64,000 bases of DNA from Salinirussus salinus (GTDB lineage: Archaea; Halobacteriota; Halobacteria; Halobacteriales; Haloarculaceae): NCBI RefSeq assembly GCF_009831455.1, contig NZ_WOWO01000004.1, positions 310,001-374,000 of the forward strand. Direction: 5' to 3'. Every line of letters begins with the position of its first letter. The first letter of the stretch is position 1. Made by a program: the position numbers and the translations under genes. The notes under the pieces are model-generated. The model was not told the origin of the DNA. It did no database searches and was given only the letters and a program-made list of their open reading frames with translations. Shown in pieces: positions 54,670-57,011 of the stretch.

Positions 54670-54761
54670 GCGTCCGGTGATAGGACACGAGCCGGACTTA
54701 ACCATTATCATTCGGAGAGCGACCGACGCCCGACAGACGGGCGTCAGACACCTCGGGAAGA

Positions 54762-54769: not shown

Positions 54770-54799
54770 CCCCGACAGACAACGTGTATGACGACCGCG

Positions 54800-55402
54800 A
54801 TGAGCAAGATCACGTTCCGCGCCGACGACGAGCTCATCAGGCGACTCGAGGAGTTCGACGCCTCGAAAAGCGAGGTGATGCGGGAGGCCCTGCGCGAGTA
54901 TCTCGACGGCGCCACCGCCTCGACGTCCGACACGCGGCCCAGTGCCGACCCCGAACCCGAGACCCTCGACGAGGCCGTCGCCGACCGCGTGGACGCGCTC
55001 ATCGCCGACCGGCTCGAGGAGGCGTTTACGCCACGCCAGCCCCGCGACGTCAACGTAAACATCACGCTCGACGGCGATTCTGCGGCCGTCAGCGACGAAC
55101 AGGCCGGCTCAGTAAACACCACCGCGGGCGCGTCACACGACTCGCCGGCCGATGCGTCACACACGCCGGAAACGCGTAAGACGGGTGACGGGGGCGACGA
55201 AAACGCGGCTGCAAACGAGAGTAAGACGTGCTCGCAGTGCGGGGAAACCGTGTCGCCGTCCCACGTTTACTGTCCGAACTGTGGGGAGAAGACGGCGCGG
55301 CGGGTGTTCTGTGACTGCGGGGACGAACTCCGCTCTGACTGGGGATTCTGTCCCGGCTGTGGCCGCCGCACCCCCGCAGCGGACGTTCTCGACCAGGGCT
55401 AA
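54800..55402 (+). CDS. cdrL: CdrL-like RHH regulator with double zinc ribbon
   Basis: A 200-residue transcription regulator. The N-terminal ribbon-helix-helix reads [18 protein letters not shown] then [15 protein letters not shown] disordered acidic Ser/Thr/Ala linker spans about 55-145. The C-terminus has two zinc ribbons (CSQCG, CPNCG, CDCGDEL, CPGCG). In Haloferax, CdrL is known to regulate the cdrS-ftsZ2 operon, and here the gene lies directly upstream of cdrS, supporting the name. Two GTAAGAC boxes fall inside the coding region near 55176 and 55221. An ATG at 54788 is an alternative start. Confidence 0.82.
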
Positions 55403-55452
55403 CCGCCCGTAAACAGCCATCTCAGTGGGTTTACTCCGGTAAACGCCCTGAT

Positions 55453-55613
55453 GTCTTACGCAACCCCCAACCTTTATTACATACCAGTCTGTGGTATGTT
55501 GTGCGTAAGACGGCCGTCTTACACACCGCGACGCGCGGCACGCATTCCGCCGCTGTCGTGCGGTTTCGGTGTGTAAAACGTGCGGGCCGGGGGTGTCCCG
55601 GTCCCCGTCTTAC
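55453..55613. promoter_or_regulatory. cdrS promoter with GTAAGAC/GTCTTAC box array
   Basis: TATA-like TTTATTA is at 55473-55479. Inverted repeat ACATACC...GGTATGT is at 55479-55499, and palindrome GTAAGACGGCCGTCTTAC is at 55505-55522. Further GTCTTAC copies are at 55453-55459 and 55607-55613. The palindromes straddle the expected start site near 55503, a typical repressor position. Confidence 0.6.
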
Positions 55614-55632
55614 CCACAAAGGGGAACACAAC

Positions 55633-55827
55633 ATGGAGCGTGTGACACTACGGATTCCGAAACAGCAGGTCGAAGAGGTCGAACGGATGGTCGAGACGGG
55701 GGAGTACCCCAACCGGAGCGAGGCGATCCGGGCCGCCGTTCGGGAGATGCTCGACGAGCAGGACGCCGGCAAGGAGCGTCCCTCCGAGAAACGCCAGCGC
55801 CGCAAGCGCTCGTGGGCCAAGGTGTAA
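55633..55827 (+). CDS. cdrS: CdrS-like short RHH regulator of cell division
   Basis: A 64-residue protein consisting almost only of a ribbon-helix-helix fold ([19 protein letters not shown] then [15 protein letters not shown]), with a basic tail (KRQRRKRSW). In Haloferax and Halobacterium, CdrS controls ftsZ2 and cell division. Here it ends two bases before ftsZ2, so the two form an operon. The leader from the predicted start site to this ATG is about 130 bases, unusually long for the window. Confidence 0.87.
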
Positions 55828-55829
55828 CT

Positions 55830-57011
55830 ATGCAGGATATCGTCAACGAGGCCCTCGAACGCGACGAGCAGGAACAGAAACAGATGGACGACGTCGACGG
55901 CTTTGGCGATCCGCGGATCGTGATCGTCGGCTGTGGCGGCGCCGGCAACAACACGGTCAACCGCCTCTACAACATCGGCGTCGACGGCGCGGAGACCATC
56001 GCGCTGAACACCGACAAACAGCACCTGCAGATGATCGAGGCCGACACGAAGATCCTGGTCGGCAAGTCCCTCACCAACGGGCTCGGCGCGGGCGGCGACC
56101 CCTCGATGGGCGAGCGCGCCACCGAGATGGCTCAGGGGACCATCAAGGAGGTGCTCGGTGACGCCGACCTCGTCTTCGTCACCGCCGGCATGGGTGGTGG
56201 CACGGGGACCGGCGCGGCGCCGGTCGTCTCGAAGATCGCCAAAGAGCAGGGCGCTATCGTCGTCGGCATGGTGTCGACGCCGTTCAACGTCGAGCGCGCG
56301 CGCACGGTCAAAGCCGAGGAGGGCCTCGAGCGGCTCCGCGACGAGGCCGACTCCATCATCGTGCTCGACAACAACCGGCTGCTCGACTACGTCCCGAACC
56401 TCCCGATCGGCAAGGCGTTCTCGGTGATGGACCAGATCATCGCCGAGACGGTCAAGGGGATCAGCGAGACCATCACCCAGCCCTCGCTGATCAACCTCGA
56501 TTACGCCGACATGACCTCGATCATGAACAAGGGTGGCGTGGCGGTCATGCTGGTCGGCGAGACCCAGGACAAGAACAAGACCGATGAGGTCGTCAAGGAC
56601 GCGATGAACCACCCGCTTTTGGACGTCGACTACCGCGGCGCCTCCGGCGGGCTGGTCCACATCACCGGCGGCCCCGACCTCACGCTGAAGGAGGCCGAGG
56701 GGATCGCCCAGAACATCACCGACCGCCTGGAGGCCGACGCCAACGTCATCTGGGGCGCGCGCATCCAGGAGCAGTACAAGGGGAAGGTCCGCGTGATGGC
56801 GATCATGACCGGCGTCCAGAGCGCCCAGGTGCTCGGCCCGACGACCCAGAAGCAGGCCGACAAGTCCCGCCAGGCCATTGAGGGCGTCGACGACGAAGCC
56901 TTCGACGCCGCGACGAACGTGGCCGAAAGTCGCGAGTTCGGCGAGACCGACGGCGGCCGCAGCAGCGTCGAGACCAACAACGGACTCGACGTCGTCCGCA
57001 CTAACGACTGA
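55830..57011 (+). CDS. ftsZ2: Tubulin-like cell division GTPase FtsZ2
   Basis: A 393-residue GTPase that forms a contractile ring with FtsZ1/SepF. The nucleotide signature GGGTGTG (residues 122-128) is intact. The T7 loop is [11 protein letters not shown], which carries the acidic catalytic residue. An N-terminal helical extension (about 1-24, rich in Glu/Gln) precedes the fold; an acidic C-tail ends the protein. It is directly downstream of cdrS and belongs to its operon. Confidence 0.96.

Follow-up and report, generated by a model that had tools for sequence, protein, structure and literature searches.

The transcription start of cdrS-ftsZ2 in Salinirussus salinus is probably a two-layer control element, combining a DNA operator with a structured RNA leader. 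Its conservation, geometry, motif identities and covariation were computed; CdrL as the binder, the sign of the regulation and the effect of the RNA are what we infer. At the DNA level, two heptamers separated by four nucleotides (A-N4-B), together with a further heptamer (U) before the TATA box, would provide the site of transcription initiation with an RHH operator, and CdrL, most likely its binder in haloarchaea, would hinder initiation or early elongation at A-B. At the RNA level, the transcript's initial ~110 nt would fold into a three-way junction in which helix P1 joins A to D, helix P2 joins B to C, and a hairpin, P3, lies between C and D.

Layout of the cdrL-cdrS-ftsZ2 locus and its promoter

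The window, the whole 64,000-nucleotide stretch of S. salinus DNA analysed here, carries on its forward strand cdrL (54800–55402; Pfam RHH_1, CdrL_M and DZR, i.e. RHH, CdrL middle region and double zinc ribbon), cdrS (55633–55827, ATG at 55633; Pfam RHH_1) and ftsZ2 (55830–57011; Pfam Tubulin and FtsZ_C). RHH_1 is found in both CdrL and CdrS, so that genes for RHH proteins lie within the locus itself. A second in-frame ATG is available for cdrL at 54788, and the heptamer GTATGAC at 54786–54792, which overlaps this upstream ATG and is similarly placed in many relatives, may mark the cdrL start as a further RHH site.

Five copies of one heptamer, in either orientation, surround the predicted start of cdrS transcription. 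Four of them are situated in the leader, namely A (GTAAGAC, 55505–55511), B (GTCTTAC, 55516–55522), C (GTAAAAC, 55573–55579; GTAAGAC in most relatives) and D (GTCTTAC, 55607–55613), and the fifth, U (GTCTTAC, 55453–55459), lies 5' of the BRE/TATA and outside the transcript. The letters and the spacing to A identify CTTTATTA (55472–55479) as the TATA box. The first-pass annotation, which did not include U, C and D, had correctly read the TATA, an inverted repeat ACATACC-7-GGTATGT at 55479–55499, and the perfect palindrome GTAAGACGGCCGTCTTAC formed by A and B at 55505–55522, and had placed the latter close to the start site. This placement is supported across 122 distinct upstream regions (window included), where the TATA 8-mer begins 33–35 nt 5' of A in 110, and by a Y-R step 2 nt 5' of A in 82 of 82 sequences; together, the TATA spacing and the conserved step predict a transcription start at 55503. 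For the orthologous cdrS of Haloferax volcanii, a figure legend indicates that the +1 has been mapped and that the transcript possesses a 5' UTR. The core heptamer is likewise present 5' of A, as U, in 110 of the 122 regions, compared with a mean of 1.3 and a maximum of 6 in shuffles. The inverted repeat ACATACC-7-GGTATGT was rejected as a conserved element, being exact in this window only and loosely matched in 4/122 regions, the window included. A different inverted repeat, GTTTAC-n-GTAAAC, is located 5' of U (55428–55444) and occurs in 11/122 regions.

The palindrome A-B and its putative binder

The palindrome GTAAGACGGCCGTCTTAC has no other match in the window at ≤3 mismatches, where 0.05 would be expected, and none in the genome at ≤2 mismatches. 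Its occurrence before cdrS in relatives, which had been proposed as a check, was examined through the pattern GTAAGAC-N2-8-GTCTTAC, found in 237/242 genomes of the class, with a single forward match in 236 of them and two in G263; a reversed-pattern control gave none in nearly all of the 242. A chance palindrome was rejected on these two counts, the expectation within the window and the conservation within the class. Loss of the palindrome from relatives, which would have refuted the operator proposal, was accordingly not observed. Among the five genomes without the pattern, G068 has a leader that is still matched by an RNA covariance model, three (G065, G158 and G201) have an altered B, either GTATGAC or GTCATAC, beside a retained A and D, and G253, whose best match is merely FtsZ1-like, may lack its ftsZ2 locus.

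Exact copies of A and B occur together in 117 of the 122 upstream regions, of D in 116 and of C in 71; loci L014 and L015, in which the contig begins ≤25 nt from cdrS, were excluded. The spacer between A and B measures 4 nt in 91 regions, 5 nt in 26, and 2–3, 6 or 8 nt in the 5 others, a variation that is loose for a rigid operator and counts against one. An exact heptamer begins 11 bp after A in 89/122 regions and 12 bp after it in 25/122. Thus, short half-sites are repeated about one helical turn apart, at 11 or 12 bp in haloarchaea, as in RHH operators. U (mostly at −52, or −65) and B (mostly at +11) stand at nearly fixed distances from A, and the A-to-C and A-to-D distances drift; C and D are not phased with A and so carry no argument at the DNA level. 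Locus L201 shows the haloarchaeal variant GTATGAC-N3-GTAAGAC-N3-GTATGAC. D is missing from loci L106, L133 and L134, which are haloarchaeal, contain A-B (with one mismatch in L134) and possess a different downstream hairpin.

The outgroup genomes, which we read as methanogens, carry GTCAGAC/GTCTGAC at their cdrS genes where haloarchaea have GTAAGAC/GTCTTAC, one substitution per strand that preserves the symmetry. In 31 distinct outgroup leaders, all 74 of the 74 further heptamer copies, counted at ≤1 mismatch, are offset from the first copy by an exact multiple of 11 bp, and within this phased array the copy at +55 pairs with the copy at +22. No CdrL match was obtained for the outgroup genomes G266 and G268 in the full-length search.

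A second, related motif helped to distinguish the two RHH proteins. GTCWGAC-N4-GTCWGAC was seen by eye to recur in 34 ftsZ1 upstream regions, of which 22 contain the 8-mer CGTCAGAC or its complement and 20 contain CGTCTGAC. At ≤1 mismatch the S. salinus genome holds it at 15 places on each strand, compared with 1 for the control, and it precedes ftsZ1, DacZ and threonine ammonia-lyase, all three of which appear in the H. volcanii CdrS ChIP table (PMC8406309). Since it is found before three published CdrS targets, this motif is probably the CdrS site. In the part of that source available, the CdrS sites are described as symmetric RHH sites, and 15 of the 18 lie 41–110 nt 5' of a start (PMC8406309). 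The window contains only one match, GACAGAC-N4-GTCAGAC at 54732–54749, with one mismatch and just 5' of the cdrL promoter. A CdrS-type site (≤2 mismatches) likewise lies 60–75 nt before the start in 62 of 101 distinct cdrL upstream regions, a level of similarity reached by 0.15% of shuffled regions, and is missing from many Natrialba/Natrinema-type loci; the accessible H. volcanii text names no site before cdrL (PMC8406309). The site upstream of cdrL suggests that this gene is controlled by CdrS, with CdrL in turn acting on cdrS-ftsZ2. Two further occurrences were recorded: GTCTGACAGGGG, a CdrS-type heptamer, is present in the P3 region between C and D of the Natrialba-type loci L039, L041, L052 and L062, and L262 carries an exact CdrS-type site that lies 60 nt 5' of a bactofilin-domain gene and also precedes a different ORF on the opposite strand.

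The proposal of an RHH operator for CdrL or CdrS at the palindrome thus held in its first part, through indirect evidence, and was narrowed in its second, CdrL being favoured and CdrS less likely; steric repression, also proposed, may be the mode of action. The reading of A-B, at the transcription start, as an RHH operator has good indirect support, because A-B shares its heptamer-N4-heptamer geometry with the likely CdrS site, because the methanogen promoter carries 11-bp phased arrays and the haloarchaeal palindrome is so widely conserved, and because published CdrL ChIP falls on this promoter only: in Halobacterium salinarum, the sole reproducible CdrL site given in the available text is upstream of cdrS-ftsZ2 (PMC7439475). 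CdrL is favoured as the protein binding GTAAGAC-N4-GTCTTAC since the palindrome is unique in the genome, as the ChIP site is, and lies at that same promoter. CdrL begins with MSKITFRAD in 103/113 tblastn hits, a few of which are CdrS cross-hits, and CdrS with MERVTLRIP in 130/134; residue 3, which differs between the two, presumably contacts DNA.

An autoregulatory CdrS site at the palindrome would agree with the similarity of the N-terminal strands of CdrS and CdrL and with the CdrS-type heptamers that methanogens lacking a CdrL match carry at this promoter. We consider it unlikely because the probable CdrS motif differs from A-B, which is one base off GTCWGAC in each heptamer, and because the published CdrS ChIP table, as far as available, has no cdrS entry (PMC8406309). 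The heptamer at the cdrS promoter here is GTAAGAC/GTCTTAC. The assignment to CdrL has its own difficulty in two 99% complete genomes, G044 and G059, which gave no CdrL match in the full-length search, on which absence was judged given that the CdrL_M profile is insensitive; these genomes cut against CdrL as the binder, and in G044 the heptamers A, B and D are still present at the locus (L126). Three less complete genomes (G034, G050 and G045; 70–78%) also gave no CdrL match, and their loci (L105, L132 and L099) retain A and D without B.

Predicted fold and covariation of the mRNA leader

The leader of the window (55503–55613) is predicted to fold as a three-way junction of −71.4 kcal/mol (z −3.66), a stability that one dinucleotide shuffle in 200 matched. 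In this predicted structure, P1 is closed near nucleotide +3 and stops shortly before a Shine-Dalgarno-like AGGGG, and P3 occupies 55584–55604. The 5' end would consequently be buried, and the start region, comprising the conserved AGGGGA (55620–55625) and the start codon, would be unpaired. Such an arrangement suggests control of stability or translation, and the fold most likely sets one or the other for the cdrS-ftsZ2 mRNA. P3 is present but weakly supported across relatives (mean z −1.4, mononucleotide shuffles).

Among 140 leaders, A-D and B-C are both predicted with probabilities above 0.5 in 113 and not both in 27. RNAalifold selects A-D in alignment A1, composed of 82 leaders under 85% identity and biased toward the full arrangement since eight leaders with an incomplete set (L097, L099, L104, L105, L106, L132, L133 and L134) had been left out. 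The covariance model R1 still matches L099, L104, L105 and L132 at E < 0.01, and gives no match at that threshold for L097, L106, L133 and L134. Searched against 392 genomes of the phylum, R1 matches 79, which by list order are 79 of the 81 haloarchaeal (same-order) genomes and no others. A recurrent genomic repeat was rejected, as R1 gives a single match in G000. Rfam returned no family at its gathering threshold, the best being SCARNA23 with 26.2 bits against a gathering score of 60.

Covariation was then assessed for the competing pairings. With a structure drawn from the sequences' own complementarity, A-D plus B-C yielded 98 cells changed on both sides, compared with 38.7 ± 5.5 in shuffles, none of 500 of which reached 98; sliding the partners reduced the double-change cells to ≤24. 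The alternative of A-B plus C-D hairpins yielded 6 such cells against 9.3 in shuffles, with no covariation excess, and was rejected as the native fold. In a tree-aware null model, in which substitutions were randomly re-placed on a tree built from the coding sequence that follows the leader (300 runs, minimum p 0.003), three P2 pairs showed 5, 7 and 7 compensatory branches against means of 0.4–0.6 (p 0.003 each), and the P1 pair 16-169 showed 2 against 0.11 expected (p 0.01); among the P1/P2 pairs in this test, 17-168 was not significant (p 0.063) and 29-123 had no compensatory branches. Compensatory base changes beyond those attributable to phylogeny therefore support the helices, as in structured leaders. 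These sequence comparisons support the view that the palindrome's strands A and B also pair with D and C in a covarying RNA three-way junction, a feature absent from the first-pass annotation. In methanogens, covariation of the B'-C' flanks is suggestive, from 16 distinct pairs.

The covariation was also considered as the trace of a longer, species-specific DNA half-site. This reading was rejected because, by eye, the outer flank is common to B and C only and the inner flank to A and D only, a pattern of sharing that a DNA site does not predict.

If A, B, C, D and U were all RHH half-sites on DNA, the RNA pairing would be a by-product of inverted repeats. The identical heptamer 5' of the TATA box and the phased methanogen arrays, with their pairing of the +55 and +22 copies, speak for this explanation, but it appears improbable: covariation of the flanks beyond the heptamers is confined to the A-D and B-C registers, the B-C and C-D distances drift, and C is replaced by wobble variants, GTGAGAC in L126 for example. 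The reverse case, in which the palindrome does no more than supply P1 and P2 with their 5' strands and its DNA is not a protein-binding site, would accommodate the covariation of both helices and the retention of the palindrome in G044 without detectable CdrL. We regard it as very unlikely, as it leaves unexplained U, the nearly fixed 11–12 bp A-B spacing, the 11-bp phasing of the outgroup and the published CdrL ChIP.

A switch operating during transcription deserves slightly more weight, although we still doubt it. The A-B hairpin would form first and be replaced by A-D and B-C, with C-D as an alternative partner, and the balance would set expression. One heptamer common to all four strands would permit such exchange, A-B is predicted above 0.5 in 15/140 leaders and C-D in 10/140, and the near invariance of A, B and D beside a variable C would follow from a need for A to pair with B as well as with D. 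On the other side, A-B plus C-D lack covariation, though invariant pairs are uninformative in this respect.

The preferred two-layer reading would account for both patterns. A and B would be fixed by protein recognition on DNA, because A, B and D show hardly any change, a constancy that the helix alone does not require; D and C would be tied to A and B by RNA pairing, because the B-C and A-D inner flanks change together, which the DNA site does not require.

Relation to known systems and significance

NikR, with its operator GTATGA-N16-TCATAC, and MetJ, with its met-box arrays, are RHH proteins that recognize short half-sites in phased or inverted repeats. A-B resembles these operators in its repeated half-sites and differs in spacing and regulon. 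The locus corresponds to the CdrL region of H. salinarum, with the same promoter and the gene order cdrL-cdrS-ftsZ2 (PMC7439475); unlike the present analysis, the main text of that study, as available, names no motif (0 occurrences of 'motif' or 'palindrom') and no RNA structure. Structured 5' leaders and riboswitch candidates, as presented in the accessible part of PMC2864571, are likewise conserved, covarying leaders upstream of one gene set; the leader described here differs from them in also containing a candidate DNA operator. RHH operators and structured leaders are thus known kinds of element, and to our knowledge neither their superposition on one set of heptamers nor the rewriting from methanogen to halophile has been described: no description of the motif or the leader was found in the literature searched, a scope beyond which most subscription papers lie.

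For the origin of this arrangement we tentatively propose a scenario that we hold to be possible rather than probable. An ancestral 11-bp phased CdrS autoregulatory array, kept in methanogens, would have been rewritten in haloarchaea from GTCWGAC to GTAAGAC when CdrL arose, two copies becoming the CdrL operator and the others strands of the mRNA three-way junction, with CdrS driving cdrL and CdrL acting back on cdrS-ftsZ2. If this were true, one sequence would serve as operator and riboregulator within a feedback loop that times cell division.

According to the portion of PMC4983044 available, 72% of H. volcanii mRNAs are leaderless, so that the cdrS-ftsZ2 transcript would carry a structured leader of deep conservation within a group of mostly leaderless mRNAs. 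Moreover, cdrS-ftsZ2 mRNA rises in Halobacterium without matching ribosome occupancy, as reported in the accessible text of PMC8303175, and the leader is a candidate cis element for this post-transcriptional control. The timing of archaeal division is largely open, and CdrS and CdrL are among the few known regulators; the present work offers letter-level candidates for the sites of both proteins and a regulatory loop that can be tested.
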